Below, one piece after another: positions 2,285 to 56,944 of a stretch of 64,000 nucleotides of DNA; position 1 is the stretch's first letter; every line of letters begins with the position of its first letter. The stretch lies in assembly GCA_002005505.1 (NCBI GenBank), contig KV908372.1:1-64000 (forward strand), written 5' to 3'. The notes beneath the pieces are model-generated. The model was not told the DNA's origin. It searched no databases and saw only the letters and a program-made list of their open reading frames with translations. This stretch comes from Botryococcus braunii. Its lineage: Eukaryota > Chlorophyta > Trebouxiophyceae. Position numbers and translations under genes: made by a program.

Positions 2285-3662
2285 GTTGTAGGTAATGACC
2301 TAGATCAGGTAATTACTTAGGGAGAATTACTGTTGGACTTATTCAGAGGTATTCTTCTGACTCATCCTAGGCAAAACAGTCGTGCATGCCAGGCTGCCCT
2401 GGACGGCACAACACTGTTGGGCCTTAGGTGCAAACTACTGCATACTTCTTCCAGCTAGTCCTAGGAACTTGGCTGTGAAGCGACATAATTCCTTGACAGA
2501 CCTCAGTCTTCCTCACGTAACTTCACATAGAGGTTTGGACAACTTTGCATTGACTCACACAGCATCGTGGCACTCAGTGGAACTTGTTTTTTGGGACCTC
2601 GAATACGTCTTCGAGGTCAGTCAAACTAATTCTTAGGCGGCCACATCAGTGTGTTTAATTAGGTACAGAAAATGGGACCTTTAGGTATTTTGTCTAGGAC
2701 ACATCATCCGTATTGGATTACCAATTAGGGACCTTTTGGAATGAGAAGCTTTCAGGGACTCGACTTTTATCGAGTCCCTTGGGCGCCAAACACGGTCAGG
2801 TATTTAACTGCTGGAGGCGACAGACTCGTCATTCGTTGGTTGGCCGAATCCTGTGCCACGGAATGGAAGTCCTGTCTGTTTGCTACAAGTTGAAGCTTGC
2901 TATTGCATATTTGATTTGTGTTTGAGACAGTCGCACTTGCTTTTTGGTTGCCGCAAGGGAAGGCGCTCCTGTCGAACCTGTATCAGTCGCGCGCAAAGGG
3001 TACGTTGGCACTTTGACAGATGATAGAATAGCATGATGTATTTGATAACCACTGCATTTGCAATGTTGCTCATTGCTCTGGCTAAATCGTAATGCTTGGG
3101 GCAATAGGTGTGTCGAGGTCTGACTGACGAAACCTCTACAGTGCATTGACAAATCCTTTTGCGGACTTACAGGTATTGATGTAGTTGTGATTTAATGATA
3201 TAATTCCTATTTGGTTAGATATTTCGTTGACTGTCGCAAAGCTGTGCTGTTAGGTCGTCAAGGGAACGAGTGTGCCGGACTCAGGTCCGGCACAGAACAT
3301 GTTTGAGACGATGCTATAAAACCAGCTGATGTGAGAAGTAATTTATGCGTATATGAGATTGTGCCAGTAGGGCAAGCAGTAATATTGTCCCATGTAATCG
3401 ATTCGTTGGTTGGCCGAATCCTGTGCCACGGAATGGAAGTCCTGTCTGTTTGCTACAAGTTGAAGCTTGCTATTGCATATTTGATTTGTGTTTGAGACAG
3501 TCGCACTTGCTTTTTGGTTGCCGCAAGGGAAGGCGCTCCTGTCGAACCTGTATCAGTCGCGCGCAAAGGGTGTGTCGAGGTCTGACTGACGAAACCTCTA
3601 CAGTGCATTGACAAATCCTTTTGCGGACTTACAGGTGTTCTCTCTGCCCATAACCTTTCACA
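2285..3662 (+). repeat. Copia-A 5' LTR, long type (copy 2)
   Basis: About 1376 bp, lacking only the first one or two bases of the TGTTGTAGG terminus and ending in TTTCACA. It contains U3, the intron-bearing transcribed repeat, a spacer, the spliced repeat and a 28-bp U5. It carries type I variants (AATGCTTGGGG near 3092 and CTGTTAGG near 3246), the same as the inverted LTR it abuts on its left. Confidence 0.88.
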
Positions 3663-9275: not shown

Positions 9276-10651
9276 TGTTGTAGGTAATGACCTAGATCAG
9301 GTAATTACTTAGGGAGAATTACTGTTGGACTTATTCAGAGGTATTCTTCTGACTCATCCTAGGCAAAACAGTCGTGCATGCCAGGCTGCCCTGGACGGCA
9401 CAACACTGTTGGGCCTTAGGTGCAAACTACTGCATACTTCTTCCAGCTAGTCCTAGGAACTTGGCTGTGAAGCGACATAATTCCTTGACAGACCTCAGTC
9501 TTCCTCACGTAACTTCACATAGAGGTTTGGACAACTTTGCATTGACTCACACAGCATCGTGGCACTCAGTGGAACTTGTTTTTGGGACCTCGAATACGTC
9601 TTCGAGGTCAGTCAAACTAATTCTTAGGCGGCCACATCAGTGTGTTTAATTAGGTACAGAAAATGGGACCTTTAGGTATTTTGTCTAGGACACATCATCC
9701 GTATTGGATTACCAATTAGGGACCTTTTGGAATGAGAAGCTTTCAGGGACTCGACTTTTATCGAGTCCCTTGGGCGCCAAACACGGTCAGGTATTTAACT
9801 GCTGGAGGCGACAGACTCGTCATTCGTTGGTTGGCCGAATCCTGTGCCACGGAATGGAAGTCCTGTCTGTTTGCTACAAGTTGAAGCTTGCTATTGCATA
9901 TTTGATTTGTGTTTGAGACAGTCGCACTTGCTTTTTGGTTGCCGCAAGGGAAGGCGCTCCTGTCGAACCTGTATCAGTCGCGCGCAAAGGGTACGTTGGC
10001 ACTTTGACAGATGATAGAATAGCATGATGTATTTGATAACCACTGCATTTGCAATGTTGCTCATTGCTCTGGCTAAATCGTAATGCTGGGGCAATAGGTG
10101 TGTCGAGGTCTGACTGACGAAACCTCTACAGTGCATTGACAAATCCTTTTGCGGACTTACAGGTATTGATGTAGTTGTGATTTAATGATATAATTCCTAT
10201 TTGGTTAGATATTTCGTTGACTGTCGCAAAGCTGTGCTTTAGGTCGTCAAGGGAACGAGTGTGCCGGACTCAGGTCCGGCACAGAACATGTTTGAGACGA
10301 TGCTATAAAACCAGCTGATGTGAGAAGTAATTTATGCGTATATGAGATTGTGCCAGTAGGGCAAGCAGTAATATTGTCCCATGTAATCGATTCGTTGGTT
10401 GGCCGAATCCTGTGCCACGGAATGGAAGTCCTGTCTGTTTGCTACAAGTTGAAGCTTGCTATTGCATATTTGATTTGTGTTTGAGACAGTCGCACTTGCT
10501 TTTTGGTTGCCGCAAGGGAAGGCGCTCCTGTCGAACCTGTATCAGTCGCGCGCAAAGGGTGTGTCGAGGTCTGACTGACGAAACCTCTACAGTGCATTGA
10601 CAAATCCTTTTGCGGACTTACAGGTGTTCTCTCTGCCCATAACCTTTCACA
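9276..10651 (+). repeat. Copia-A 3' LTR, long type (copy 2)
   Basis: 1376 bp from TGTTGTAGG to TTTCACA, directly after the polypurine tract. It has the full long structure: U3 of 546 bp (9276-9821), intron-bearing repeat, spacer, spliced repeat and U5. It carries type II variants (AATGCTGGGG, CTTTAGG), unlike the 5' LTR of the same copy. Confidence 0.9.
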
Positions 10652-11111: not shown

Positions 11112-11971
11112 TGTGAGAGGTTATGGGCAGAGAGAACACCTGTAAGTCCGCAAAAGGATTTGTCAATGCACTTGTAGAGGTTTCGTCAGTCAGACCTCGA
11201 CACACCCTTTGCGCGCGACTGATACAGGTTCGACAGGAGCGCCTTCCCTTGCGGCAACCAAAAAGCAAGTGCGACTGTCTCAAACACAAATCAAATATGC
11301 AATAGCAAGCTTCAACTTGTAGCAAACAGACAGGACTTCCATTCCGTGGCACAGGATTCGGCCAACCAACGAATGACGAGTCTGTCGCCTCCAGCAGTTA
11401 AATACCTGACCGTGTTTGGCGCCCAAGGGACTCGATAAAAGTCGAGTCCCTGAAAGCTTCTCATTCCAAAAGGTCCCTAATTGGTAATCCAATACGGATG
11501 ATGTGTCCTAGACAAAATACCTAAAGGTCCCATTTTCTGTACCTAATTAAACACACTGATGTGGCCGCCTAAGAATTAGTTTGACTGACCTCGAAGACGT
11601 ATTCGAGGTCCCAAAAACAAGTTCCACTGAGTGCCACGATGCTGTGTGAGTCAATGCAAAGTTGTCCAAACCTCTATGTGAAGTTACGTGAGGAAGACTG
11701 AGGTCTGTCAAGGAATTATGTCGCTTCACAGCCAAGTTCCTAGGACTAGCTGGAAGAAGTATGCAGTAGTTTGCACCTAAGGCCCAACAGTGTTGTGCCG
11801 TCCAGGGCAGCCTGGCATGCACGACTGTTTTGCCTAGGATGAGTCAGAAGAATACCTCTGAATAAGTCCAACAGTAATGCTCCCTGAGTAATTACCTGAT
11901 CTAGGTCATTACTTACAACAAACAGTAATGCTCCCTAAGTAATTACCTGATCTAGGTCATTACCTACAACA
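11112..11971 (-). repeat. Copia-A 3' LTR, short (spliced) type (copy 3)
   Basis: 860 bp. On the minus strand U3 runs straight into one copy of the transcribed segment in which the 107-bp intron is absent, and then into U5; the spacer and second copy of long LTRs are missing. An extra T (GCACTTGTAGAGG, near 11171) is shared with the short LTR of copy 5. The outer ~50 bp of U3 is tandemly duplicated (about 11872-11971), and the inner end reads TGTGAGAGG instead of TGTGAAAGG. Confidence 0.85.
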
Positions 11972-17583: not shown

Positions 17584-18674
17584 TGTGAAAGGTTATGGGC
17601 AGAGAGAACACCTGTAAGTCCGCAAAAGGATTTGTCAATGCACTGTAGAGGTTTCGTCAGTCAGACCTCGACACACCCTTTGCGCGCGACTGATACAGGT
17701 TCGACAGGAGCGCCTTCCCTTGCGGCAACCAAAAAGCAAGTGCGACTGTCTCAAACACAAATCAAATATGCAATAGCAAGCTTCAACTTGTAGCAAACAG
17801 ACAGGACTTCCATTCCGTGGCACAGGATTCGGCCAACCAACGAATCGATTACATGGGACAATATTACTGCTTGCCCTACTGGCACAATCTCATATACGCA
17901 TAAATTACTTCTCACATCAGCTGGTTTTATAGCATCGTCTCAAACATGTTCTGTGCCGGACCTGAGTCCGGCACACTCGTTCCCTTGACGACCTAAAGCA
18001 CAGCTTTGCGACAGTCAACGAAATATCTAACCAAATAGGAATTATATCATTAAATCACAACTACATCAATACCTGTAAGTCCGCAAAAGGATTTGTCAAT
18101 GCACTGTAGAGGTTTCGTCAGTCAGACCTCGACACACCTATTGCCCAGCATTACGATTTAGCCAGAGCAATGAGCAACATTGCAAATGCAGTGGTTATCA
18201 AATACATCATGCTATTCTATATCTGTCAAAGTGCAACGTACCCTTTGCGCGCGACTGATACAGGTTCGACAGGAGCGCCTTCCCTTGCGGCAACCAAAAG
18301 CAAGTGCGACTGTCTCAAACACAAATCAAATATGCAATAGCAAGCTTCAACTTGTAGCAAACAGACAGGACTTCCATTCCGTGGCACAGGATTCGGCCAA
18401 CCAACGAATGACGAGTCTGTCGCCTCCAGCAGTTAAATACCTGACCGTGTTTGGCGCCAAGGACTCGATAAAAGTCGAGTCCTGAAAGCTTCTCATTCCA
18501 AAAGTCCTAATGGTAATCAATACGGATGATGTCCTAGACAAAATACTAAAGGTCCATTTTCTGTACCTAATTAAACACTGATGTGGCCGCTAGAATTAGT
18601 TTGACTGACCTCGAAGACGTATTCGAGGTCCAAAAACAATTCCACTGAGTGCCACGATGCTGTGTAGTCAATGA
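17584..18674 (-). repeat. Copia-A 5' LTR, long type with decayed U3 (copy 3)
   Basis: Long-type LTR starting at the primer site side (TGTGAAA at 17584). The intron-bearing and spliced repeats are both present. From ~18220 to 18674 it loses bases at many short runs, more towards the junction with copy 4, and about 245 bp of outer U3 is absent. It carries type II variants, matching the LTR across the junction. Confidence 0.82.
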
Positions 18675-18964
18675 AAGTTGTAACTCTAGGGAAGCATTAC
18701 TGGTTGGACTTATTCAGAGGTATTCTTCTGACTCATCCTAGGCAAAACAGTCGTGCATGCCAGGCTGCCCTGGACGGCACAACACTGTTGGGCCTTAGGT
18801 GCAAACTACTGCATACTTCTTCCAGCTAGTCCTAGGAACTTGGCTGTGAAGCGACATAATTCCTTGACAGACCTCAGTCTTCCTCACGTAACTTCACATA
18901 GAGGTTTGGACAACTTTGCATTGACTCACACAGCATCGTGGCACTCAGTGGAACTTGTTTTTGG

Positions 18965-18988
18965 GACCTCGAATACGTCTTCGAGGTC
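18965..18988 (+). other. Perfect 9-bp inverted repeat in U3
   Basis: GACCTCGAA and TTCGAGGTC are separated by TACGTC. The hairpin is conserved in clean Copia-A LTRs and is disrupted only in the decayed junction LTR of copy 1. It could be a protein-binding palindrome; its role is unknown. Confidence 0.6.
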
Positions 18989-19124
18989 AGTCAAACTAAT
19001 TCTTAGGCGGCCACATCAGTGTGTTTAATTAGGTACAGAAAATGGGACCTTTAGGTATTTTGTCTAGGACACATCATCCGTATTGGATTACCAATTAGGG
19101 ACCTTTTGGAATGAGAAGCTTTCA

Positions 19125-19148
19125 GGGACTCGACTTTTATCGAGTCCC
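19125..19148 (+). other. Perfect 9-bp inverted repeat upstream of the TATA-like box
   Basis: GGGACTCGA and TCGAGTCCC flank a 6-base loop, ending 22 bp before the TATTTAA box. Its position suggests a regulatory palindrome in U3, but no specific factor can be named. Confidence 0.6.
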
Positions 19149-19170
19149 TTGGGCGCCAAACACGGTCAGG

Positions 19171-19177
19171 TATTTAA
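19171..19177 (+). promoter_or_regulatory. TATA-like box of the Copia-A LTR
   Basis: TATTTAA lies at -30 to -24 relative to the first base of the duplicated segment at 19201, the usual distance to a polymerase II start. This is independent support for transcription starting where the repeat starts. The same box is in every clean Copia-A LTR. Confidence 0.65.
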
Positions 19178-19200
19178 CTGCTGGAGGCGACAGACTCGTC

Positions 19201-19541
19201 ATTCGTTGGTTGGCCGAATCCTGTGCCACGGAATGGAAGTCCTGTCTGTTTGCTACAAGTTGAAGCTTGCTATTGCATATTTGATTTGTGTTTGAGACAG
19301 TCGCACTTGCTTTTTGGTTGCCGCAAGGGAAGGCGCTCCTGTCGAACCTGTATCAGTCGCGCGCAAAGGGTACGTTGGCACTTTGACAGATGATAGAATA
19401 GCATGATGTATTTGATAACCACTGCATTTGCAATGTTGCTCATTGCTCTGGCTAAATCGTAATGCTGGGGCAATAGGTGTGTCGAGGTCTGACTGACGAA
19501 ACCTCTACAGTGCATTGACAAATCCTTTTGCGGACTTACAG
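19201..19541 (+). repeat. Upstream (unspliced) copy of the transcribed LTR segment
   Basis: It consists of a first part of 169 bp (19201-19369), a 107-bp GT-AG intron (19370-19476) and a second part of 65 bp (19477-19541). The second part ends in CTTACAG followed by GTATTG, a donor-like site. Without the intron it equals the 234-bp segment at 19769-20002 in length and sequence. I infer that this is the R region of the LTR in unspliced form. Confidence 0.8.
19370..19476 (+). other. Candidate 107-bp spliceosomal intron inside the LTR
   Basis: It begins GTACGT and ends CAATAG. Removing it joins CAAAGG to GTGTGTCG, exactly the sequence of the downstream repeat and of the short LTRs. A branch-point-like CTAAAT lies near 19452, about 25 bases before the acceptor. 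Its exact absence at canonical splice borders in two independent contexts is what RNA splicing followed by reverse transcription would leave. It is not protein-coding. Confidence 0.75.
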
Positions 19542-19768
19542 GTATTGATGTAGTTGTGATTTAATGATATAATTCCTATTTGGTTAGATATTTCGTTGAC
19601 TGTCGCAAAGCTGTGCTTTAGGTCGTCAAGGGAACGAGTGTGCCGGACTCAGGTCCGGCACAGAACATGTTTGAGACGATGCTATAAAACCAGCTGATGT
19701 GAGAAGTAATTTATGCGTATATGAGATTGTGCCAGTAGGGCAAGCAGTAATATTGTCCCATGTAATCG

Positions 19769-20002
19769 ATTCGTTGGTTGGCCGAATCCTGTGCCACGGA
19801 ATGGAAGTCCTGTCTGTTTGCTACAAGTTGAAGCTTGCTATTGCATATTTGATTTGTGTTTGAGACAGTCGCACTTGCTTTTTGGTTGCCGCAAGGGAAG
19901 GCGCTCCTGTCGAACCTGTATCAGTCGCGCGCAAAGGGTGTGTCGAGGTCTGACTGACGAAACCTCTACAGTGCATTGACAAATCCTTTTGCGGACTTAC
20001 AG
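19769..20002 (+). repeat. Downstream (spliced) copy of the transcribed LTR segment
   Basis: 234 bp identical in plan to 19201-19541 minus the intron (169 + 65 bp). It is preceded by spacer ending GTAATCG and followed directly by U5 (GTGTTCTC...). Its last bases CTTACAG could also serve as a splice acceptor, in which case splicing 19542-20002 would give a leader identical to the short LTR class. Confidence 0.8.
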
Positions 20003-20030
20003 GTGTTCTCTCTGCCCATAACCTTTCACA

Positions 20031-20045
20031 GGTTATGGGCCCACC
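20031..20045 (+). other. Primer binding site, initiator tRNA-Met anticodon arm (copy 4)
   Basis: GGTTATGGGCCCACC directly follows the LTR and is complementary to the anticodon arm of initiator tRNA-Met. The U5 end just before it contains CCCATAACC, the same nine bases as in the tRNA, only seven bases away, so the site can fold back on itself. The 16-mer CCCATAACCTTTCACA at 20015-20030 recurs at 20164-20179, two bases before the gag ATG. Confidence 0.85.
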
Positions 20046-20181
20046 TGCCCATCGAGCTACGCCGAAGCCAAGGTTGCAGAGTACGAGGAGTCCGCCTTGA
20101 ATACCTGCTGCACGTCATATCCAGAACGATTCATATCTGCAAAGTGACCCAGACTTGCAGAAACCCATAACCTTTCACACA

Positions 20182-23100
20182 ATGACCCAGTCTGCGGAAT
20201 CATCTCCAATGGACCAGCTGAACCAACAGCCTCCTGTAAGTCTGGGTGGTCAATCCACAGAACAGGAGAAGACAGCACTCCCAGTGGTTTCGATACTGAC
20301 AGCCTTACTGCACGAGGACACAACAAAGCCATCAACAACAAATGTTAAGGTAGCCCATCCCTTATTAAAGGATGGGTGGAATTTCAAGTCCTGGCTTTAT
20401 GATCTGACCACTGCAGCCATCCACAAGGAGTGCACGGAGGCCTTTCAGAAACCCCTTCCTTTCACGAGAGCAAATGCTGCTGCCATGATGCTGATCACTG
20501 GCAGTGTCCCAGTGGAGTGGAGTCCTATGTTGACAATGAAGCCCTCTGCCTTTGATGCCCTGTTATACATAGCCAATAAGTTCACTGGAGGACACAACAA
20601 GTCTGTTAACCGCCAGTGGCTACACACACTCAAAACAGAGCACATGACCAGGGAGGAGACGTTCGAGACATTTGTCATGAAAAAATTCATACTTTTCCAG
20701 AACCTCCTGGACAACTCCCACTCCATTGACCCCGAAGATGTCACTAATGCTATTGTGGATTGTCTCCCCACTGAGCTAGCACAGTTCAAAGGAGCACTCT
20801 ATGGGCATTGTTGCGGGCGCTCCTCAGAAGATGTGGTAAAAATCCTGCAGAGCCATGCCTATGGTGCTGGCTTCAATGACCAGCTCCCTCGACCTCTTCC
20901 CAAGGCAGCGGCAGTCCTCCCAAAGTCCCAGGACCCTGAGGCAGACCAGTCAGAGCAAGACAGAAAGAGGTCACGAAAAGTCAGGTGCTGGGAGTGTGGG
21001 AGCCGTGGACACATCAGCAAGGAGTGCACAAAATGGAAAAAGGGTACTGGAGAGGAGCAAGCTGGCGACAGAAGTAAGCATTCACTGCCAAGTGTTCCCT
21101 CTGCATCCAACAGTACCCATGTTCCATGTCCTAAAAACGCAGAAGCCGTTCCTATCTCACTGCCCAGTGTGACGTTTAATGTATTACAAAGTGGTGGGAT
21201 AGGGCACTCGTGCGAGGAATGGCTTGTGGACTCTGGGGCTACTGTCCACCTGGTTAATGACTTTGGTGTATTGCAGAACCCCACAGTGTACACAGAACCA
21301 CGTCAACTGCAGTTGGCTACATCAGAGTCTCATGGTTCCATCATTGCTAGTGGGAGTGTGTGTCTGGTGAATGCAGAAGGGAAGTTACTGTGGCTCCATA
21401 ATGTACAATGTGTTCCACAGGCCAGCACAAATCTCTTGTCTGTATCAGCTGGGGTAAGGGATGGTATTCAATTTGTTCCACGTGAGAATGGGACCTACAG
21501 CAGTCTGGTGGGACCCATGGGTTGGGAGTGCAGCATTGTAGAAAGATATGGGTTGTATGTTCTGAGGGGAATTTATCCCACCAAATATCAGGTGGCTTGT
21601 CAAGTGTGTGTGAACCCTATGTCTGCACATCATGCTGCGCACAAACCTGCACATAACTGCAAGTTGCGAAAACTTTGGCATGAGAGGTTAGGGCATCCTG
21701 GGAAGACAGCCACAGAGCGTTTGAGCAGGGAGGAGTTGTGTACTGGGATACCTGTGTCCCTTCTTCCTTGTTCAAAGTGCGATACTCACTGTGACCCTTG
21801 TGTTCGGGGAAAGCAGTGTAAACCATCTTTCAAGCCAAGTTCACATGAGCCGCCTCGAGTACTGCATCGAATACATGCGGATACGGTTGGTGCCATGTCA
21901 ACTCCTGGCGTTGAAGGGGAAAAGTTTTCTGTCACAGTAGTGGATGAGTTGTCTAATTTCGTTTCAGTGTTACCAGTCACTAGCAAGGCTACCATTGCAT
22001 CTCATTTGACAGACACTATTACATACTGGGAGAGACAGACAGAATCCAAGGTTAAGGCGGTTAGGACTGACAGGGGCACAGAGTTCTTGAATAAAACGTT
22101 TCATGGGTTCTGTACAGAGAATGGCATTCACACTGAGACCTCTGCCGCGTATACTCCACAGCAGAATGGAGTTGCTGAGAGAATGAATCGAACATTGAAA
22201 GAGAAGGCCAGAACATTGCTGTTGGGTGTTCAGGCAGATGAGAGTCTTTGGGTGGATGCAATGCTTACTGCTGCATATTTACATAATGTGATGCCAGTCT
22301 CTGGTCAGGAGAAAACCCCATTTGAAATGTTCACTGGCTCTGTCCCTGATCTGTCCCATTTGCGCAAGTGGGGCTGTTTGGCATACGTGAAACATGCCAA
22401 ACACCAGGTGTCATCTTTGGGTGCACAGTCTGAGGCAGGTATGTTTGTGGGATACTGTCCACACACCAAGGGGTACAAGGTCCGACTGCCTGGTAGGACA
22501 GTGGTGTCTCCGAGTGTACATTTTGTGGAGAGCCAGAGTGGTGCGTCTGCCATTGGGCTTCAAGCTGCTGGGCCCGGTCCTGTATCTGCAACCCAGCCTG
22601 GATCTAGCCTGGATCCGGACCCAGCCTCACCTCAACCGGGACCCAGCCTGGACCAGGACCTGAATCCTGTGGAATTGGAGACCCCTGCATCCACTGAGGC
22701 AACAATTCCCATGGAGGACAACAGTAGCGAGGACGATGAACCCTCCCCAGCTCGCCCTCAAACTGCCCGACTGCATCCAGACCCCACTGCACCCCGCGCA
22801 CCTTGTGCACCCCCTGCGCGCACTAGGCACTCCAACCTCACTGCACCCTGCGCCCCCGCCGCGTCATCCCCAGTGGCGTCTCCTGGCTCTACAGCGCCTC
22901 GTCCAGCATCCTCAAGCCAATCACCTGGAGTCAGTGAGGTGCCCAGGCGCATGCATGCTGCTACCAGGCATGGGACCTCTGCACCAACCACCAGTGGAGG
23001 GATTCGCACCATAGCCCGACTGAGACTCATGGCAGTACCACTGGCCAAGTCTCCAACTTCACGCACCCCGGGCGCATTCCCCTGGCCTGGTGGTACGGCA

Positions 23101-25458
23101 CGTTTCCAGCTGCAGCCTGGAGCTTTGACACGTGCAGAGCGTCTGCAGCAACGAAATGCTCGTAAACAGCAACCCAAGTCTGGTGACATCACAGAGCAGG
23201 CTGGGATCGAAGCTGCTGATGAAGCTCCTACCACCGTCACTGTACATGATGACATCAGTACAGAAGAAGGGGGGATTACAACGTCCAGGGAACCAGGGGA
23301 AGCAGGAGACGTAGGGGAAGCAGGAGAAGCAGAATGTACTGGGAGGGGTACTGGAGTTGACACTGACTCTGCAGTGGAGGGTGATTCAAGTGCTGTTGAT
23401 CAGTGTAGCGATGACAATGCTGTTACTATGCATGTACGTGATGAGGCTGTAGGGAGGCTTGTTAATGCAAAATGTGAATCTGATCGTGAAACTCGACTTC
23501 GAGTTAGCAATGTGCATGACGCAGTGGACCATTCTGAGATGGTATGTGAACATGAAGAGATGATAACTGCTGCTGCTGTGAGAGAAGATGAGAGCGGGAG
23601 TCAGGAAGCACGGAGAGTAGTGGGTCAGATGAGATCCAGAGGCAAGGTTGCATTCTTTGATAATCTGCCATCTGCCACAAGGCAGAGCTCAGATAATCCA
23701 TGGGCAGGATCTGCCAGGATTGTTAGAGACATTTTGCATGAGCAAGATGGGGCAGAACCCAGTGGGGAGATGCCTTCATGTGTGTTCCGTACGGCGGATT
23801 CAGGAGGGGATGCCAGTGAACCTGCCAGTATTGCTTTTCTACGTGCTTGCCTTGCTAGTCCTGCAGGAGTGAGATTTAGCAAGATTCCTGTACCAAGTAA
23901 CTATCGTGAGGCACGAATGTCTGATCAGTGGGTGTTTTGGGAACAAGCCATGATCGAGGAGAAGAACTCTCTCGATGCTCATGAGTGCTTTGAGTACACT
24001 GAAAGACCCAGAGGAAAGAAAGTCATCCCAGTTCACTGGATCTATTCTGTTAAAGTCGATGCCCATGGTAATGTTATAAGGTACAAAGCTCGTCTTGTTG
24101 CACAAGGATGTCGTCAAATTCAGGGTATTGATGTGGACGAGGTCTTCGCACCCACCAGTAGCTTTGGGGCTCGACGTGTTCTTCTGTGTAAGGCAGCTGC
24201 TGAGGATATGGAAATTCATCAGCTCGATATAAAAACGGCCTTTTTGAATGGGGATCTGGAGGAAGAGGTTTACGTTACTCAACCTCCAGGATTTCACAAT
24301 GGTGGTCCCCAAGTGTGTCGCTTGCGTAAGGCTCTGTACGGCCTCAAACAAGCTCCACGTGCCTGGTATCATACGCTTGATGCCACACTGGCTAAACATG
24401 GATTTACTGCATGCATGTCAGATGCAGGAATCTATGTGTCAAATGTTCCAGGGGAAGATCCTGTGTATTTGGTTCTCTTTGTAGACGACATGCTGATCAT
24501 GTCAAAGGCTCTCCCACGTGTATTGGCCTTTAAGGAGACTATAGGGAAAGAGTTTTCTATTCATGATCTTGGGGAAGTCAAGGATTTCCTGGGATGTCAG
24601 ATTGTTCGAGATCGAGAGCGGAAGCTGATGTGGATGAGTAGTGGGCTGAAGATAGATGCATTGGTGGACAGTTTTGGACTTAGTGGTGACACACGGGCCT
24701 ATGACACACCCATGAGTAAATCATTTGTGCACACCAGTCACTCCACTCAGTCCAATCCCATTGATGGGGCTGGGGTTGCTTTGGAACCCGGGCATCGTTA
24801 CTGTGAGCTGATTGGCTCTCTTCTGTATTTAGCTAATACCACACGTCCTGATATTGCTCATGCGGTAGGGGTTCTTTCACGGTATAGAGGCACACCTACC
24901 ACTGCACATATGCAAGAAGGTCTTCGAGTGGTCCGGTATTTGAAGGACACTCGGGATCTTGCACTCCAGCTTGGTGGGGGCACATCTCCTCTTGAGGGTT
25001 ATGTCGATGCCGACTATGCGGGTGATCTAGATATGCGAGCATCCACTACAGGTTTCGTGTTCCAAGTTTATGGTGGGTCAGTTGTTTGGGGCAGCAAGAA
25101 ACAAAGTGCCACTGCTACATCAACAGTGGAATCAGAGTTTCGAGCTGCTAGTCATGCTGTCAAAGAAGCCATTTGGCTTCGCGGTTTCTTGGAGGAGATT
25201 CATGTTGATGTGTGGAAACCTCCTCTGTTCATTGATAACTCTGGGTGTGTTCGGAATTTACGGAATCTTGTAAATTCCAAGTACACCAAGCATGTTGCTG
25301 TGGCATTTCACCATGCACGTGCTGCTGTCATTCAGGGTGACGTGGACGTGAAGTATGTACCCACCCAGAAGAATGTGGCGGACATCTTTACGAAACCACT
25401 CGTCCCTGTGTTGTTCAAGATTCACCGCAATACACTTGGTGTCGTTTCACGCGAGTGA
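20182..25458 (+). CDS. gag-pol: Copia-A gag-pol polyprotein, intact
   Basis: 1758-aa polyprotein that, after self-cleavage, would build virus-like particles, reverse transcribe the element and integrate it. An in-frame TTG lies 27 bases upstream, but 20182 is the first ATG. Domains: gag with CCHC zinc knuckle at residues 269-282 (CWECGSRGHISKEC); aspartic protease DSGA with Asp350; GAG-pre-integrase LWHERLGHPG; integrase with Asp567, Asp630 and Glu666 (D-D-35-E); reverse transcriptase with FVDD at 1433-1436; RNase H with Asp1609 (YVDADYAGD). Between integrase and reverse transcriptase lies an unusually long linker (about residues 785-1230), rich in Pro, Ser, Ala and then acidic residues. Gag and pol are in one frame, as in copia, so no frameshift is needed. 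The stop is TGA. Confidence 0.95.
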   Translation: MTQSAESSPMDQLNQQPPVSLGGQSTEQEKTALPVVSILTALLHEDTTKPSTTNVKVAHPLLKDGWNFKSWLYDLTTAAIHKECTEAFQKPLPFTRANAAAMMLITGSVPVEWSPMLTMKPSAFDALLYIANKFTGGHNKSVNRQWLHTLKTEHMTREETFETFVMKKFILFQNLLDNSHSIDPEDVTNAIVDCLPTELAQFKGALYGHCCGRSSEDVVKILQSHAYGAGFNDQLPRPLPKAAAVLPKSQDPEADQSEQDRKRSRKVRCWECGSRGHISKECTKWKKGTGEEQAGDRSKHSLPSVPSASNSTHVPCPKNAEAVPISLPSVTFNVLQSGGIGHSCEEWLVDSGATVHLVNDFGVLQNPTVYTEPRQLQLATSESHGSIIASGSVCLVNAEGKLLWLHNVQCVPQASTNLLSVSAGVRDGIQFVPRENGTYSSLVGPMGWECSIVERYGLYVLRGIYPTKYQVACQVCVNPMSAHHAAHKPAHNCKLRKLWHERLGHPGKTATERLSREELCTGIPVSLLPCSKCDTHCDPCVRGKQCKPSFKPSSHEPPRVLHRIHADTVGAMSTPGVEGEKFSVTVVDELSNFVSVLPVTSKATIASHLTDTITYWERQTESKVKAVRTDRGTEFLNKTFHGFCTENGIHTETSAAYTPQQNGVAERMNRTLKEKARTLLLGVQADESLWVDAMLTAAYLHNVMPVSGQEKTPFEMFTGSVPDLSHLRKWGCLAYVKHAKHQVSSLGAQSEAGMFVGYCPHTKGYKVRLPGRTVVSPSVHFVESQSGASAIGLQAAGPGPVSATQPGSSLDPDPASPQPGPSLDQDLNPVELETPASTEATIPMEDNSSEDDEPSPARPQTARLHPDPTAPRAPCAPPARTRHSNLTAPCAPAASSPVASPGSTAPRPASSSQSPGVSEVPRRMHAATRHGTSAPTTSGGIRTIARLRLMAVPLAKSPTSRTPGAFPWPGGTARFQLQPGALTRAERLQQRNARKQQPKSGDITEQAGIEAADEAPTTVTVHDDISTEEGGITTSREPGEAGDVGEAGEAECTGRGTGVDTDSAVEGDSSAVDQCSDDNAVTMHVRDEAVGRLVNAKCESDRETRLRVSNVHDAVDHSEMVCEHEEMITAAAVREDESGSQEARRVVGQMRSRGKVAFFDNLPSATRQSSDNPWAGSARIVRDILHEQDGAEPSGEMPSCVFRTADSGGDASEPASIAFLRACLASPAGVRFSKIPVPSNYREARMSDQWVFWEQAMIEEKNSLDAHECFEYTERPRGKKVIPVHWIYSVKVDAHGNVIRYKARLVAQGCRQIQGIDVDEVFAPTSSFGARRVLLCKAAAEDMEIHQLDIKTAFLNGDLEEEVYVTQPPGFHNGGPQVCRLRKALYGLKQAPRAWYHTLDATLAKHGFTACMSDAGIYVSNVPGEDPVYLVLFVDDMLIMSKALPRVLAFKETIGKEFSIHDLGEVKDFLGCQIVRDRERKLMWMSSGLKIDALVDSFGLSGDTRAYDTPMSKSFVHTSHSTQSNPIDGAGVALEPGHRYCELIGSLLYLANTTRPDIAHAVGVLSRYRGTPTTAHMQEGLRVVRYLKDTRDLALQLGGGTSPLEGYVDADYAGDLDMRASTTGFVFQVYGGSVVWGSKKQSATATSTVESEFRAASHAVKEAIWLRGFLEEIHVDVWKPPLFIDNSGCVRNLRNLVNSKYTKHVAVAFHHARAAVIQGDVDVKYVPTQKNVADIFTKPLVPVLFKIHRNTLGVVSRE

Positions 25459-25645: not shown

Positions 25646-27022
25646 TGTTGTAGGTAATGACCTAGATCAGGTAATTACTTAGGGAGCATTACTGTTGGAC
25701 TTATTCAGAGGTATTCTTCTGACTCATCCTAGGCAAAACAGTCGTGCATGCCAGGCTGCCCTGGACGGCACAACACTGTTGGGCCTTAGGTGCAAACTAC
25801 TGCATACTTCTTCCAGCTAGTCCTAGGAACTTGGCTGTGAAGCGACATAATTCCTTGACAGACCTCAGTCTTCCTCACGTAACTTCACATAGAGGTTTGG
25901 ACAACTTTGCATTGACTCACACAGCATCGTGGCACTCAGTGGAACTTGTTTTTGGGACCTCGAATACGTCTTCGAGGTCAGTCAAACTAATTCTTAGGCG
26001 GCCACATCAGTGTGTTTAATTAGGTACAGAAAATGGGACCTTTAGGTATTTTGTCTAGGACACATCATCCGTATTGGATTACCAATTAGGGACCTTTTGG
26101 AATGAGAAGCTTTCAGGGACTCGACTTTTATCGAGTCCCTTGGGCGCCAAACACGGTCAGGTATTTAACTGCTGGAGGCGACAGACTCGTCATTCGTTGG
26201 TTGGCCGAATCCTGTGCCACGGAATGGAAGTCCTGTCTGTTTGCTACAAGTTGAAGCTTGCTATTGCATATTTGATTTGTGTTTGAGACAGTCGCACTTG
26301 CTTTTTGGTTGCCGCAAGGGAAGGCGCTCCTGTCGAACCTGTATCAGTCGCGCGCAAAGGGTACGTTGGCACTTTGACAGATGATAGAATAGCATGATGT
26401 ATTTGATAACCACTGCATTTGCAATGTTGCTCATTGCTCTGGCTAAATCGTAATGCTTGGGGCAATAGGTGTGTCGAGGTCTGACTGACGAAACCTCTAC
26501 AGTGCATTGACAAATCCTTTTGCGGACTTACAGGTATTGATGTAGTTGTGATTTAATGAATAATTCCTATTTGGTTAGATATTTCGTTGACTGTCGCAAA
26601 GCTGTGCTGTTAGGTCGTCAAGGGAACGAGTGTGCCGGACTCAGGTCCGGCACAGAACATGTTTGAGACGATGCTATAAAACCAGCTGATGTGAGAAGTA
26701 ATTTATGCGTATATGAGATTGTGCCAGTAGGGCAAGCAGTAATATTGTCCCATGTAATCGATTCGTTGGTTGGCCGAATCCTGTGCCACGGAATGGAAGT
26801 CCTGTCTGTTTGCTACAAGTTGAAGCTTGCTATTGCATATTTGATTTGTGTTTGAGACAGTCGCACTTGCTTTTTGGTTGCCGCAAGGGAAGGCGCTCCT
26901 GTCGAACCTGTATCAGTCGCGCGCAAAGGGTGTGTCGAGGTCTGACTGACGAAACCTCTACAGTGCATTGACAAATCCTTTTGCGGACTTACAGGTGTTC
27001 TCTCTGCCCATAACCTTTCACA
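25646..27022 (+). repeat. Copia-A 3' LTR, long type (copy 4)
   Basis: 1377 bp, TGTTGTAGG to TTTCACA, preceded by the polypurine tract AAGGGGAAG. Full long structure with intron-bearing and spliced repeats. Type I variants (AATGCTTGGGG, CTGTTAGG), differing from the type II 5' LTR of the same element and matching the inverted LTR of copy 5 across the junction. Confidence 0.9.
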
Positions 27023-27768
27023 CTCAGTGATTGCTTGAATGCTACAGGCTGTAGACCAGAACGCACTGGATACGTCTGCAGGTGCATGAGTTGATGCCTA
27101 GTGCCCAGTGCAAAGTGCGGGTGCATGTCTGGATGCATCGGCAGTTGAGGCGACTGGAGTTCATCGTCTCGTACTGGTCCTCCATGGAATTGTTCCTCAG
27201 TGGATGCAGGTCTCCAACTCCACAGATTCAGGTCCTGTCCAGCTGGTCCGTTGGGTGAGCTGGTCCGATCCAGGCTAGATCCAGCTGGTGCGATACAGGA
27301 CCAGGCCCAGCAGCTTGCAGCCAATGGCAGACGCACCATCTGGCTCTGTTGAGGTAATGACTAGATCAGTAATACTTGGAGCATTACTGTTAACTATTCA
27401 GAGTATTCTTCTGACTCATCCTAGCAAACAGTCGTGCATGCAGCTGCCTGGACGGCACAACACTGTTGGCCTTAGGTGCAAACTACTGCATATTCTCCAG
27501 CTAGTCCTAGGAACTTGGCTGTGAAGCGACATAATTCCTTGACAGACCTCAGTCTTCCTCACGTAATTCACATAGAGTTGGACAACTTTGCATTGACTCA
27601 CACAGCATCGTGGCATCAGTGGAACTTGTTTTTGGACCTCGAATACGTCTTCGAGGTCAGTCAAACTATTCTTAGGCGGCCACATCAGTGTGTTAATTGA
27701 CAGATGGACTAGATGTCAGACACATCATCCATATTGGAATGACTTAATGACTTTATCGATCTGCAAAC
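27023..27768 (+). other. Scrambled junction between copies 4 and 5, no gene
   Basis: About 27050-27350 is a degraded minus-strand copy of the pol linker (compare 14640-15090), with bases dropped from most doublets. About 27350-27700 is a degraded plus-strand Copia-A U3, again base-compressed. The last ~65 bases match nothing clearly. Open frames of 74-116 codons here are by-products. No target-site duplication is seen. The pattern looks like uncorrected read sequence bridging a fold-back. Confidence 0.65.
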
Positions 27769-29144
27769 TGTAAAGGTTATGGGCAGAGAGAACACCTGTA
27801 AGTCCGCAAAAGGATTTGTCAATGCACTGTAGAGGTTTCGTCAGTCAGACCTCGACACACCCTTTGCGCGCGACTGATACAGGTTCGACAGGAGCGCCTT
27901 CCCTTGCGGCAACCAAAAAGCAAGTGCGACTGTCTCAAACACAAATCAAATATGCAATAGCAAGCTTCAACTTGTAGCAAACAGACAGGACTTCCATTCC
28001 GTGGCACAGGATTCGGCCAACCAACGAATCGATTACATGGGACAATATTACTGCTTGCCCTACTGGCACAATCTCATATACGCATAAATTACTTCTCACA
28101 TCAGCTGGTTTTATAGCATCGTCTCAAACATGTTCTGTGCCGGACCTGAGTCCGGCACACTCGTTCCCTTGACGACCTAACAGCACAGCTTTGCGACAGT
28201 CAGCGAAATATCTAACCAAATAGGAATTATCTCATTAAATCACAACTACATCAATACCTGTAAGTCCGCAAAAGGATTTGTCAATGCACTGTAGAGGTTT
28301 CGTCAGTCAGACCTCGACACACCTATTGCCCCAAGCATTACGATTTAGCCAGAGCAATGAGCAACATTGCAAATGCAGTGGTTATCAAATACATCATGAT
28401 ATTCTATCATCTGTCAAAGTGCCAAGTACCCTTTGCGCGCGACTGATACAGGTTCGACAGGAGCGCCTTCCCTTGCGGCAACCAAAAAGCAAGTGCGACT
28501 GTCTCAAACACAAATCAAATATGCAATAGCAAGCTTCAACTTGTAGCAAACAGACAGGACTTCCATTCCGTGGCACAGGATTCGGCCAACCAACGAATGA
28601 CGAGTCTGTCGCCTCCAGCAGTTAAATACCTGACCGTGTTTGGCGCCCAAGGGACTCGATAAAAGTCGAGTCCCTGAAAGCTTCTCATTCCAAAAAGTCC
28701 CTAATTGGTAATCCAATACGGATGATGTGTCCTAGACAAAATACCTAAAGGTCCCATTTTCTGTACCTAATTAAGCACACTGATGTGGCCGCCTAAGAAT
28801 TAGTTTGACTGACCTCGAAGACGTATTCGAGGTCCCAAAAACAAGTTCCACTGAGTGCCACGATGCTGTGTGAGTCAATGCAAAGTTGTCCAAACCTCTA
28901 TGTGAAGTTACGTGAGGAAGACTGAGGTCTGTCAAGGAATTATGTCGCTTCACAGCCAAGTTCCTAGGACTAGCTGGAAGAAGTATGCAGTAGTTTGCAC
29001 CTAAGGCCCAACAGTGTTGTGCCGTCCAGGGCAGCCTGGCATGCACGACTGTTTTGCCTAGGATGAGTCAGAAGAATACCTCTGAATAAGTCCAACAGTA
29101 ATGCTCCCTAAGTAATTACCTGATCTAGGTCATTACCTACAACA
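27769..29144 (-). repeat. Copia-A 3' LTR, long type (copy 5)
   Basis: 1376 bp with the full long structure and type I variants. The inner terminus reads TGTAAAGG instead of TGTGAAAGG at the edge of the scrambled junction. The polypurine tract lies just right of 29144. Confidence 0.88.
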
Positions 29145-34725: not shown

Positions 34726-35535
34726 TGTGAAAGGTTATGGGCAGAGAGAACACCTGTAAGTCCGCAAAAGGATTTGTCAATGCACTTGTAGAGGTTTCGT
34801 CAGTCAGACCTCGACACACCCTTTGCGCGCGACTGATACAGGTTCGACAGGAGCGCCTTCCCTTGCGGCAACCAAAAAGCAAGTGCGACTGTCTCAAACA
34901 CAAATCAAATATGCAATAGCAAGCTTCAACTTGTAGCAAACAGACAGGACTTCCATTCCGTGGCACAGGATTCGGCCAACCAACGAATGACGAGTCTGTC
35001 GCCTCCAGCAGTTAAATACCTGACCGTGTTTGGCGCCCAAGGGACTCGATAAAAGTCGAGTCCCTGAAAGCTTCTCATTCCAAAAAGTCCCTAATTGGTA
35101 ATCCAATACGGATGATGTGTCCTAGACAAAATACCTAAAGGTCCCATTTTCTGTACCTAATTAAACACACTGATGTGGCCGCCTAAGAATTAGTTTGACT
35201 GACCTCGAAGACGTATTCGAGGTCCCAAAAAACAAGTTCCACTGAGTGCCACGATGCTGTGTGAGTCAATGCAAAGTTGTCCAAACCTCTATGTGAAGTT
35301 ACGTGAGGAAGACTGAGGTCTGTCAAGGAATTATGTCGCTTCACAGCCAAGTTCCTAGGACTAGCTGGAAGAAGTATGCAGTAGTTTGCACCTAAGGCCC
35401 AACAGTGTTGTGCCGTCCAGGGCAGCCTGGCATGCACGACTGTTTTGCCTAGGATGAGTCAGAAGAATACCTCTGAATAAGTCCAACAGTAATGCTCCCT
35501 AAGTAATTACCTGATCTAGGTCATTACCTACAACA
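34726..35535 (-). repeat. Copia-A 5' LTR, short (spliced) type (copy 5)
   Basis: 810 bp: U3 (34989-35535, 547 bp), one spliced transcribed segment (34754-34988, 235 bp with one extra T) and U5 (34726-34753, 28 bp). The intron, spacer and second repeat of long LTRs are absent. It is the product expected when cDNA of the spliced leader is transferred in register to the start of R. Confidence 0.88.
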
Positions 35536-38500
35536 GATAGCGGACTCCAATGTGCTTCGTCCTGGGTGAAATGGGTATGCCTCTAATGTTGGCCAGGGCT
35601 CCAGTATTATCTGAGAGTATGACTGCAGCTCCCAGATCCTCTCCAACATCCTGCACCAACTTGGACAGCCAAAGTGCCTCCTGGACACCAGTGCTCATTG
35701 CTATGAATTCAGCCTCAACAGTTGACAGGGCAGCCAGCTTTTGGAGTTTGCTACCCCAAGAGATAGCCGTGCCATCAGACAGGAAGATAAAACCAGAGGT
35801 GGATCTGTACCCATCCAGATCCCCTGCAAAGTCTGAATCAACATATCCAATGATCCCTCCCTTGCTCCTTTCCCATTTGAGACCTAACTCCTTGGTCCCT
35901 GACAGATACTGGAGCAGATGAATCCCAGCCCCCCAGTGAATAGAAGTCGGGGAGTTTGAGAATCTTGCTAGGAGAGAAGCAGAGTAGGAAATGTCTGGTC
36001 TGGTAGTGTTTGACAAGTAAAGAACACCCCCAACCAGTTCCCTATATCTGTTGCTTTGGGGAAGTGGTTTGCCTTCTCCCTTTTTGAGTTTCATTGATCT
36101 ATCGAAGGGAGTAGATTTGGGCTTGTCCCCTTTTAAATCGAAACTCTCAAGCATGTCACTGATCAATTTCTCATTTGAGAGTGTAATTGACAACAAAGCA
36201 CCATTTGCATCTCTCTCTTGTTTTATTTGCATGCCTAGAAAGTGTTGTGCCTCCCCTAAGTCCTTTATGCTGAAATGACTGGACATAAGTGATTTGACTT
36301 CTGTTATGACAGACATGCTCTGTGATAGTAATAGTATGTCATCAACATACAGCAGAAGATAGACTACAGACCCCTCTGACTTGTTCAGGATGAATAGGGA
36401 TGGATCAGCATCTGAGATAGTAAAACCTGAACTCACAAGGACATGACTGATAGTGTCATACCAAGCCTTGGGCGCCTGCTTGAGCCCATAGAGGGCCTTG
36501 TGCAGCTTGCAAACAGTATTGGGTCCACCTACATGAAAACCCTCTGGTTGCTGCACATAAATTTCCTCTGCTAATTTCCCATGTAGGAAGGCTGTGCTGA
36601 CATCCATCTGATGCACATGCATGTCCCTGTTCACAGCCTTCGCCAACAGGTACCTTAGTGTGGTATGTTTAGACACAGGGGCATAGACTTCAGTGTAATC
36701 TATGCTATATATCTGTTTGAAACCCTTGGCTACCAGTCTTGCTTTAAATCTATCCACCTCCCCTGTTTCAGTGAGCTTTATTTTGTAAACCCATTTGACA
36801 GGGAGGGCCTTTTTGCGTTGTGCATCTGAAACTTCCACATATGTCCAGGTGCTAAGAGCAGAGAGAGACTGCATTTCATCTTTCATGGCATCCAACCATT
36901 TTCCAGCTTCAGGGGAGTTGATAGCTTGAAAGTAAGTGACAGGTTCAACATATATTGTGTCTTTTTGGACTTGAACATATCCAAGGAAAGAGGTTTGGGT
37001 TTCTGTAGTGTGTGCACCAGACCACCAGGGATGTGTTTCTGCATTTTTCCTATTCCTAACTGGATACTTACTGCTGAAACCACCTGCTGGAGGCTTAGGG
37101 ACCACATCCTGGTCTACTCCAGGTTCTAATTGGGGGTCTGGGACACTCCCCCCACTCATTTCATGGATAGTCGCTTGTGGAACACCCTTAAGTGGGCGCG
37201 GACTTGCAGCACTTGTGTAACAGGGTTCTGGACCTAAAGCGTCCGTACTTCCCGCGGCTGCACTTTTACCATGCTTAGTCCCACTAGGATCAAGACCAAA
37301 GTGGTCCTGATCCTTTCCCGTTTGCTCTCCAGCACTAACCAGTGTAGTACCCTGATCCAGCTCTAAGCTAATTTCTGGGATATCTAATGCAAAAGAGACA
37401 TCAGGCATTTGCTCAGTGGTATCACCATCATCAGAATGACCATCTTCTGAGTCAGAATCAGAGACACTCACTAGTGATGGGCAAGTGTCATCCTCATCGT
37501 CTTCAGCCAGTGCTTCAGGCAGATCATGAACAGCATGTTCAGAGAATTTGACATATTCTCTGCAGTAAACATCAATCTTTCCATCAACAAGAACTTTGTA
37601 GTTCTTGCTAAGGCCATCATAACCTACAAAGATACCCTCAGCACTGACAGGCTCAAATTTCCCTCCCCTCTTTGACTTAGGAAGAAGGAGAAAACATTTG
37701 GAGCCAAAGATTCTGAGATGTGAAACATTGGGAGCCTTTCCATGCATCATTTCAAATGGGGTTTTGCTCAAGTGCTTAACAGGAGACATATCTCTAACAT
37801 AATTTGAAGTAAGAAGAGCTTCACCCCAGTTTTCAGATGATAAACCTGAGGCAGCTAGCAAACACCTTGCTTTCTCCTGTAGCGTACGGTTGAGCCTCTC
37901 TATTTTCCCATTCTGCTGATGTGCATATGGGGCAGTCTTCTGGTGAACTGCCCCATGCTCCCTACAGAATTTGAACAACCCATTGAACTCAGTACCATTA
38001 TCTGTTCTGATAAATTGTACTTTACAGTCTTGCTGGTTTTGCAAAGCTGTGAGAATGTATGTAGCTTCTTTTGCTGCATCACTCTTAGATTTAATCAGAA
38101 CAACAAATGAGTACTCTGTGAACTCATCCAAAATGACAAGGGCATACTTGTATCCTTCAGGAGTTTCAGGATCTATGGGGCCCATAAGGTCCATGTGTAT
38201 GACTTCAAGAGGTTTTGAACAAGTATTTTGGGTTGATTTAAATGGTGAGGCTGTCTGCCTCCCATGCATACAGGCATCGCAAGTACCTTGATGACCAATG
38301 CACTTGGATAGGTCACCTGATGGGAGTCCATTTTCTCCCTGCTCAACCTTTGCAAGTTTTGAGCAGAGAGATGACCAAAACGCTGATGCCATATGTTTAC
38401 CAGATCTACATCCACCTTTGTATGGTTGCACTGTGTCTTTTCATTTGACACTGGTAGGGGAACACTGTTTTGTATAGAAAGGTCTGTGAGCCACTGATAA

Positions 38501-43129: not shown

Positions 43130-43147
43130 CTTCCCCTTGCCTTTTCC

Positions 43148-45085: not shown

Positions 45086-45150
45086 TGCATGAGCTCTTGG
45101 TCTGTCTTGATGCTGTGCCCATGTCTCTCTCTCTCTCTGTCTGCTCCTTA

Positions 45151-47258: not shown

Positions 47259-47496
47259 TGGACTGTTGAATGAATTGGTCAATACTGTACTTAGTGACAT
47301 CCCCTGTCACATGCCATCAACAGCAGTGTAAACTATAGCCGTTATAGCCCTTTATGAACGGTATAGATCATACTCGTACCTCAATGACATAACACGTGAC
47401 TTGTACGATATGCGTTCTCAATAGACATTACGTATGGTAGTACTTTAGGATCCCTGCAGTCCGAGCCATCCCTGGGCAGCCCAGGAACGGCTCGGT

Positions 47497-47634
47497 ACTT
47501 GTCCGAAGCATGTTGGTATCCTTGACCAACCTCTACTGTTGGAGAGTGCTGTGTGCTGTTCCTGGAAACGTTGTAGCGTGGACGGTTTTTCCCACAGGCT
47601 ACGAAGTGACGCTGCCGTCGTGCCATCACTGCAG
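47497..47634 (+). repeat. Copia-B LTR duplicated segment, upstream copy
   Basis: 138 bp starting ACTTGTCCGAAG and ending CTGCAG, followed by GTGTGTTTAGG. Same plan as the transcribed repeat of Copia-A, but with no internal intron. Confidence 0.85.
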
Positions 47635-47978
47635 GTGTGTTTAGGATTCTCAAAGCCGTTCCAGATATGATTGTGCTCAAACATTCAGACCAGTTAGATA
47701 TTACTGCTGTGTGCATTGATGAGAGTGCATGACGAGAGCGCACTGAATGTTTGACCTCATTGAGACTTATGTTGACGTCCACCGTTGTGGCGGTAAGATA
47801 GTTTCACTGTACAAACATCACAAAGAGACCTTGCTGAGTTACTGATGAACTATTATTGTATTCTAGTGACGTAAAGTAGACATCGCAAGGCCTCTTTGGT
47901 GCTGAACTCTGCTATCAGGCAAGGCGTAGTGTTACGTGGTCTTTAGCAAGAGTGAGAGCAGTTAAGATCATTTGTAAG

Positions 47979-48116
47979 ACTTGTCCGAAGCATGTTGGTA
48001 TCCTTGACCAACCTCTACTGTTGGAGAGTGCTGTGTGCTGTTCCTGGAAACGTTGTAGCGTGGACGGTTTTTCCCACAGGCTACGAAGTGACGCTGCCGT
48101 CGTGCCATCACTGCAG
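47979..48116 (+). repeat. Copia-B LTR duplicated segment, downstream copy
   Basis: 138 bp identical to 47497-47634. The stretch before its end (TGCCATCACTGCAG) is acceptor-like; using it with the donor at 47635 would remove 482 bases and give the same product as this copy joined to U5. Confidence 0.85.
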
Positions 48117-48142
48117 GTGACGCCGCAAGCAGAAATGCTTGA

Positions 48143-53595: not shown

Positions 53596-53620
53596 GTGAC
53601 AGGGTGCTGTCAAGGGGAAG

Positions 53621-56238: not shown

Positions 56239-56263
56239 TGTAAACTTCTGAGGTTGGCGTTCC

Positions 56264-56410
56264 CTGTATGACCCGGGCACGAAGGGTGATTAGCTCGTCG
56301 GTACTCTTGTTGTGTGTAGGAGAACAAGCAGTGACCGAATGTGAATGAGGACTTGATAGGCAACAGTCAAGAGATAAGCACCCGAAGTGCCTTTAATGTC
56401 CCAATCAAGT
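56264..56410 (-). repeat. Copia-C LTR duplicated segment, downstream copy
   Basis: 147 bp, identical to 56594-56740, joined directly to U5 after CATACAG. Its border matches the donor-like border of the upstream copy exactly. Confidence 0.85.
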
Positions 56411-56593
56411 CATTACAATGCTACTTGCTTTCTCTCATCGCTCCGTAATTCAAACTACTTAATCTACTTAACTATCGATAGTCTGCATTATCGGTGTTCA
56501 ACGAGGAAAACAATTAGCATCAATTTAACAATACTACCTAGACCTTTCCTAACCCATTGTCAATGAGGCTTCAGTCTCTTAACGTCAGTTTAC

Positions 56594-56740
56594 CTGTATG
56601 ACCCGGGCACGAAGGGTGATTAGCTCGTCGGTACTCTTGTTGTGTGTAGGAGAACAAGCAGTGACCGAATGTGAATGAGGACTTGATAGGCAACAGTCAA
56701 GAGATAAGCACCCGAAGTGCCTTTAATGTCCCAATCAAGT
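56594..56740 (-). repeat. Copia-C LTR duplicated segment, upstream copy
   Basis: 147 bp starting ACTTGATTGGG and ending CATACAG, followed by GTAAACTG on the minus strand. The TATA-like box lies 24-30 bases before its first base. Confidence 0.85.
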
Positions 56741-56763
56741 GCCTCGTCCTTGCACGCCGGCGT

Positions 56764-56770
56764 CATAAAT
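56764..56770 (-). promoter_or_regulatory. TATA-like box of the Copia-C LTR
   Basis: ATTTATG on the minus strand at -30 to -24 from the start of the upstream repeat at 56740, the same spacing as TATTTAA in Copia-A. This supports transcription starting at the repeat border. Confidence 0.5.
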
Positions 56771-56944
56771 CCTTTCTAGCAAACCGTGTCTGATTACCTC
56801 ATCCTTCCTAATCAACGTACAATTGGTCTAGATGGGATCTGGCAGAACTCCCAGGTTCTGCCACCTATTATTCATTGAAGCTGATCTGGCCACTATTACT
56901 CTTCTGAGGGAAAGGCACCAAAATGTTCTGTCACTATTATAACA

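Follow-up and report, generated by a model that had tools for sequence, protein, structure and literature searches.

The window (the 64-kb stretch of DNA analysed here) contains several Copia elements, and the one on which we focus, an A-family element, carries a forward-strand LTR in which one segment occurs twice, first with an intron and then without it. Its features are as follows:

18680..20030, forward: focal 5' LTR (A-family Copia), damaged at its left end, paired with the 3' LTR at 25646-27022
18680..19200, forward: U3; TATTTAA, read directly from the sequence ~30 bp upstream of 19201, is a candidate promoter
19201..19369, forward: R1 exon 1, starting at the left duplication edge; A19201 is the putative transcription start
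19370..19476, forward: R1 internal intron, 107 bp, GTACGT...CAATAG, missing in R2
19477..19541, forward: R1 exon 2, with CAG at its end, then donor GTATTG
19542..20002, forward: putative terminal intron, 461 bp (spacer plus R2), GTATTGAT...ACTTACAG
19542..19768, forward: spacer, 227 bp
19761..19765, forward: TGTAA, putative poly(A) signal, ending 3 nt before R2
19769..20002, forward: R2, 234 bp, an intron-free copy of R1 exons 1 and 2
20003..20030, forward: U5, 28 bp
20031..20044, forward: primer-binding site (PBS) GGTTATGGGCCCAC, complementary at 14/14 positions to the anticodon region of a tRNA-Met (CAU) gene
20101..25458, forward: gag-pol open frame, with zinc knuckle, integrase and RVT_2 in copia order
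25646..27022, forward: 3' LTR, same plan as the 5' LTR, TG start at 25646
26192-26533, forward: R1 of the 3' LTR, containing a 108-bp intron at 26361-26468
26761-26994, forward: R2 of the 3' LTR, identical to the R1 exons

Sequence comparison confirms the duplication that the preliminary description had reported, a repeat of 19201-19541 at 19769-20002 minus 19370-19476: joined end to end, 19201-19369 and 19477-19541 equal 19769-20002 at 234/234 bases, with zero mismatches. At the left edge (A19201/A19769) 0 bases match beyond the repeat, and at the right edge 2 more bases (GT) are in common. The bases missing from R2 run GT...AG (GTACGTTG...GGCAATAG) in the placement originally given; as both borders contain GGT, this placement could shift by a few bases. 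The proposed junction 19541/20003 is also correct, in that 19542-20002 reads as a stretch with the ends listed above, and taking it out leaves an R-U5 identical to R2-U5. One correction concerns the left end of the LTR, at about 18680, which is damaged where an inverted LTR adjoins it.

The focal element is copia-type by domain order, with one polyprotein (probable start ATG at 20182) in which the integrase core lies ahead of RVT_2 (rve 586-686 and RVT_2 1296-1529 of 1785 aa). An LTR pair with a TG start is present, as is a tRNA PBS adjoining the 5' LTR, although the TG of the 5' LTR itself is damaged, and a polypurine stretch precedes the 3' LTR (AAGGGGAAG/TGTTG). Five of eight related elements examined have 5-bp target-site duplications (AAGTC, ATATC, AACAC, CTGGC, CCTCA). 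The PBS is of the half-tRNA type; the tRNA-Met pattern is present at three places in the genome, one of which was checked as a tRNA gene. Within 20003-20044, the end of U5 reads CCCATAACCTTTCACA, the tRNA-Met stretch in sense orientation, and could form a hairpin with the adjoining PBS; the same 16 nt reappear at 20164-20179, just ahead of the probable gag start. The CCCATAACC end is common to some sampled families and missing in others.

The remaining elements of the window include further copies of family A, elements of families B and C, and a more distant one:

1168-1998, reverse: A-family LTR, R1 intron-bearing, R2 intron-free
2332-3662, forward: A-family LTR, R1 intron-bearing, R2 intron-free
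9324-10651, forward: A-family LTR, R1 intron-bearing, R2 intron-free
17584-18681, reverse: A-family LTR, R1 intron-bearing, R2 intron-free
27772-29096, reverse: A-family LTR, R1 intron-bearing, R2 intron-free
11112..11872, reverse: A-family short LTR, U3-exon1-exon2-U5, without intron, spacer or second copy
34726..35487, reverse: A-family short LTR, U3-exon1-exon2-U5
27395-27694: A-family U3 fragment
63935-64000: A-family LTR piece cut by the window end
47264..48142, forward: family C 5' LTR, R1 47497-47634 identical to R2 47979-48116, no internal intron
53621-54499, forward: family C 3' LTR, R1/R2 at 53854-53991 / 54336-54473, same as its 5' LTR
56239..56944, reverse: family B 5' LTR, R1 56594-56740 identical to R2 56264-56410, no internal intron
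42424-43129, reverse: family B 3' LTR, R1/R2 at 42779-42925 / 42449-42595, same as its 5' LTR
35528-40017, reverse: element E, a more distant Copia pol, ~41% identical to A over the RT part

Counting both focal LTRs, matched in this comparison at 18703-20030 and 25694-27022, seven A-family LTR copies in the window have the intron in R1 and lack it in R2. Those at 17584-18681 (reverse) and 18680-20030 (forward) are head-to-head 5' LTRs with damaged U3 ends, sitting within a cluster of long inverted A-family copies. Each short LTR seems to be paired with a long one in an A-family element, 11112-11872 with 17584-18681 and 34726-35487 with 27772-29096 (all reverse). The family C element (47264-54499) is apparently inserted in the gag-pol of the family B element (42424-56944), and 5-bp flanking duplications can be read by eye for both (TGGAC and CCCGC, respectively); flanking repeats of element E were looked for and none were detected.

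The LTR plan across the genome

The 14-base PBS has 1,898 matches in the genome surveyed (176 Mb, 989 contigs; the single source of all DNA evidence here), and 0 when read backwards. Our sample comprised 90 loci of the 100 PBS sites listed, leaving out a site close to the end of its contig and the final nine of the list. A U3-R1-spacer-R2-U5 plan ending shortly before the PBS was found in 80/90 sampled loci, with one exon in 76 and three in 4; among them L089 is a tandem and the R1 start of L044 is truncated. Seven of the ten remaining loci are short U3-R-U5 LTRs (L017, L042, L047, L051, L054, L060, L070), and the other three (L074, L082, L084) have neither arrangement. In L084 (C9:928986-930999) the U5 and PBS of family L015 are preceded by unrelated sequence ending CAACACAG, perhaps a foreign exon that splicing joined to U5. 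L017, L042 and L074 have in common their own sequence after the PBS, and the short LTRs of L017 and L042 have GTGATGCC after R. The 3' LTRs of L036, L071, L017, L042 and L074 were not found in the stretches fetched.

Clustering of R2 gave 16 clusters, counted as 13 families with L068, L071 and L072 left out as variants of two clusters; the family table has 14 rows, L027 and L050 being one family. Pol identity is 38% over 1,487 aa between A and C and 63% over 531 aa between A and B. An 830-base query running from R1 to U5 was matched over its full span by at least 47 genome matches among the 64 listed, a lower bound because scoring covered 40 of 229 candidates. A protein search for relatives returned 25 proteins, with P0002 at 80% and P0003 at 73% identity, both from metagenome sources; no DNA of relatives came from the viral contigs scanned with Pol of C and A, or from the genome contigs scanned with Pol of C.

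R1 ends in CAG/GT in 13/13 family representatives, and R2 ends in the same bases followed by U5 (the L009 R2 end carries a change), so that R1 spliced to the CAG at the R2 end would give exactly R2-U5. Between the R1 donor and the end of R2 lies a putative intron of 282-482 bp, GT-AG except at the changed L009 end, and its removal would give R2-U5 in the 13 families. Four families also have internal introns in R1, 7 in total, all GT-AG and exactly missing from R2: 107 bp in A, and 92+85, 92+86 and 90+88 bp in three others (the first L027 border was left unassigned by the script, whereas that of its sister L050 was assigned). These LTR introns combine precise GT...AG borders with exact loss from a processed copy, as spliceosomal introns would. 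R2 begins with A in 11/13 representatives, and the R1/R2 match extends 1 and 2 bases further left in L015 and L018, respectively. By eye, a TATA-like stretch lies ~30 bp upstream of R1 in A, L009, L012 and L045, and none is visible in the other representatives.

In 13/13 families a TGTAA stands just ahead of R2, its end -1 to 3 nt away; the 14 x 700 nt examined contain 19 TGTAA, of which 14 occupy this position. In chlorophytes, UGUAA peaks ~17 nt before cleavage sites (PMC1868727), which would place the RNA 3' end ~10-15 nt inside R2. By analogy, TGTAA at the R2 start may be a poly(A) signal, a role that is putative for this host. In three LHC stretches judged to begin at true C-termini (of seven scanned), TGTAA follows the stop at 533 nt, at 765 nt, and not within 792 nt, and there is none in the 467 and 507 nt after two RbcS stops; none of these five host genes thus has it in the first ~460 nt past the stop codon. 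RuBisCO small-subunit and chlorophyll a/b-binding genes are present in the host genome, in which the RuBisCO large subunit has no match. These genes mark the host as photosynthetic and of the green lineage, and its small subunit resembles those of chlorophytes.

R1 and R2 within single elements

R1-R2 identity is 0.93-1.00 in 81 elements (L089 left out), 63 of them exactly identical, against 0.53-0.90 to the nearest R1 of the other 15 clusters. Two ancestral copies evolving independently would reverse this order; R2 has probably been copied from R1, and repeatedly. In seven families with at least three members (69 elements, L044 dropped), 7 sites in R have a minor base in at least two R1s, and R1 and R2 carry the same base in 100/101 element-cells, a figure that omits 4 columns beyond R and becomes 114/117 when these are included. 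At one such site the members of family C divide 7:7, and R1 and R2 agree in 14/14. Mismatching R1/R2 cells number 21 in the 69 elements, 10 of them in family L009 and 2 in columns beyond R; in the element L009 itself the LTRs are 92.7% identical to each other and R1 and R2 95.5%, so that the R1-R2 difference needs only post-insertion mutation.

Two variants carry the same change in every copy of R. In L068, R is 41 bp shorter than in its family, and in L072 it starts 12 nt further upstream, in each case in R1 and R2 of both LTRs; each element has a 5-bp target-site duplication. A leader that was altered, or that started elsewhere, would leave such a pattern through its cDNA.

Among the 575 alignment columns of a 24-member family, the one immediately preceding R2 varies most (G17, T5, C1, A1; next column 21:3), and in family L015 the column adjoining the A of R2 also ranks first, narrowly (C9, G5, T1). 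Family C has no hypervariable R2 junction, with G in 98 of the 100 copies listed. The junction pattern of the 24-member family has 868 genome matches, and a narrower pattern, one base fewer, has 33; among the 100 matches listed for the 24-member-family pattern, read by eye, a variant junction is the same in both LTRs (~6.3 kb apart) in eight pairs and different in one. Non-templated addition or cap copying at the end of strong-stop DNA would give a variable junction base. Across the 13 families this base is G in 8, A in 4 and T in 1. That the G expected from a copied cap is present in only 8/13 families, and that the junction of family C is not hypervariable, count against the model.

The existence of short LTRs (7/90 loci, and two in the window) indicates that loss of R2 is possible. 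In L051 and L089 the two LTRs of one element are unlike, one long and one short in the case of L051, and together with the apparent long/short pairs of the window they indicate that R1-R2 recombination or slippage also acts. We had considered short LTRs as proof of cDNA transfer to R1, and dropped the argument: L051 and apparently two window elements pair a long LTR with a short one, DNA recombination or slippage explains short LTRs equally well, and this evidence was set aside. L089 was likewise dropped as a candidate captured unspliced leader, its tandem 5' LTR and normal 3' LTR being explained equally well by recombination or slippage. In L047, L054 and L070, both LTRs are short and flanked by 5-bp target-site duplications, and over the U3+R stretch compared each element has 0 or 1 column unlike that of the long element L065, so that the short form appears to be recent and either made during transposition or itself able to transpose.

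A proposed replication cycle and its rivals

The observations can be joined in a cycle in which the LTR would consist of U3, R1, a terminal intron (spacer plus R2) and U5. Transcription would start at the first base of R1, and splicing of the 5' leader would take out any introns within R1 as well as the terminal intron, the latter from the R1-end donor to the R2-end acceptor, leaving spliced R-U5-PBS; the 5' TGTAA, being intronic, would be removed with the spacer and R2. RNA of the 3' LTR would be cut ~10-15 nt inside R2, directed by the TGTAA just before it, and would stay unspliced because the cut lies upstream of the acceptor. Strong-stop cDNA, primed by tRNA, would copy U5 and spliced R up to the cap, anneal to the few bases of R2 with which the RNA ends, and be extended through the spacer, unspliced R1 and U3. 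With spliced cDNA transferred in this way, the R2 of each new LTR would be a fresh copy of the spliced leader, and R1 and its introns would derive from the RNA 3' end.

We consider transfer of spliced-leader strong-stop cDNA to an unspliced 3' LTR the best explanation of R2, with a probability of roughly 0.8. It addresses features observed directly in the DNA, namely exact intron removal, the boundaries, the TGTAA position, the likeness of R1 and R2 within elements, and the hypervariable base in two families. The preliminary description had already proposed, for the focal LTR, that the transcript is spliced and its cDNA joined to an unspliced 3' end; our comparisons support that mechanism, which would also explain 12 further families, including three with two internal introns exactly removed. 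That description treated it as an event in one element; the plan is common to many families, and this together with within-element R1/R2 likeness makes a recurrent process more likely. R2 is probably rewritten in each cycle rather than occasionally. Recognition of spacer plus R2 as a GT-AG intron, and of TGTAA at the R2 junction, goes beyond the earlier account.

A single ancient strand transfer, after which R1 and R2 were kept alike by DNA gene conversion or unequal crossing-over, is an unlikely alternative. R1 and R2 are indeed close direct repeats, and the elements with unlike LTRs (L051, L089 and those of the window) show that they recombine or slip, but conversion should sometimes move introns into R2 or out of R1, and in the four three-exon loci and the seven window A LTRs with both copies the introns are confined to R1. 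It also leaves unexplained why the base where R2 begins is hypervariable in two families, and the start shift in L072. We give very little weight to a second alternative, that RNA starts at R2 or in the spacer, with R2-U5 ordinary and R1 an upstream duplicate that acquired introns later; the TATA-like TATAAAA at about 19684 in the family A spacer would suit such a start, yet intron gain at exact GT-AG positions would be needed in four families, a terminal donor at the duplication end in 13/13, and a separate cause for the within-element likeness of R1 and R2. Internal repeats are common in LTRs, but chance or ordinary tandem LTR duplication with a coincidental intron-like deletion is hardly credible given that four families show 7 internal introns removed exactly at GT-AG and that the boundaries follow one logic in 13/13.

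It seems likely, though we hold this with less assurance, that these elements follow a distinct retroelement cycle, in which an LTR intron holds spliced-leader cDNA rewritten at every minus-strand transfer and one LTR sequence has two end behaviours. An element with a poly(A) signal in its LTR must ignore the 5' signal and use the identical 3' one, and must also retain a common R at both RNA ends; placing the poly(A) signal and the spliced R inside an LTR intron would meet both needs together. For each copy, the genome would then preserve in DNA how the transposon is spliced and where its transcript starts, both readable without RNA; and with an earlier strong-stop cDNA recorded in R2, minus-strand transfer would become directly testable.

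Comparison with known systems

These elements resemble Ty1/copia in having integrase before reverse transcriptase, the order LTR-PBS-gag-pol, and a PBS matched to the tRNA-Met anticodon region; half-tRNA iMet priming is found in Drosophila copia-type Ty1/copia elements. A standard LTR is U3-R-U5 with one R. Here, instead of a single R bounded by start and poly(A) sites, R occurs twice in 80/90 loci, one copy able to hold introns and the other spliced. In processed pseudogenes and other cDNA-mediated intron loss, introns are exactly removed and the copy begins at the transcription start, and both the exact removal and a copy from the putative start recur here; the difference is that the copy lies at a fixed LTR position and is kept like its source. 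We know of no spliced R duplicate in foamy viruses.

No LTR with a spliced R duplicate was recognised in the open-access literature searched; PMC5542766, judged by its accessible portion, deals with engineered vectors and is not relevant to it. Ogre, EVADE and BARE1 are alike in that the RNA of an LTR retrotransposon is spliced by the host, and in the available part of PMC12786077 its products are subgenomic or alternative (GAG) mRNAs, with no description of a role for splicing in the LTR or in strand transfer. In foamy viruses the LTR poly(A) signal lies downstream of the major splice donor, where U1 binding silences the 5' signal (PMC3694450), a layout to which that of the algal LTR is plausibly parallel. 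Unlike the foamy virus LTR, the algal one has donor, poly(A) signal and acceptor all within the LTR, the acceptor being the end of a copy of R.
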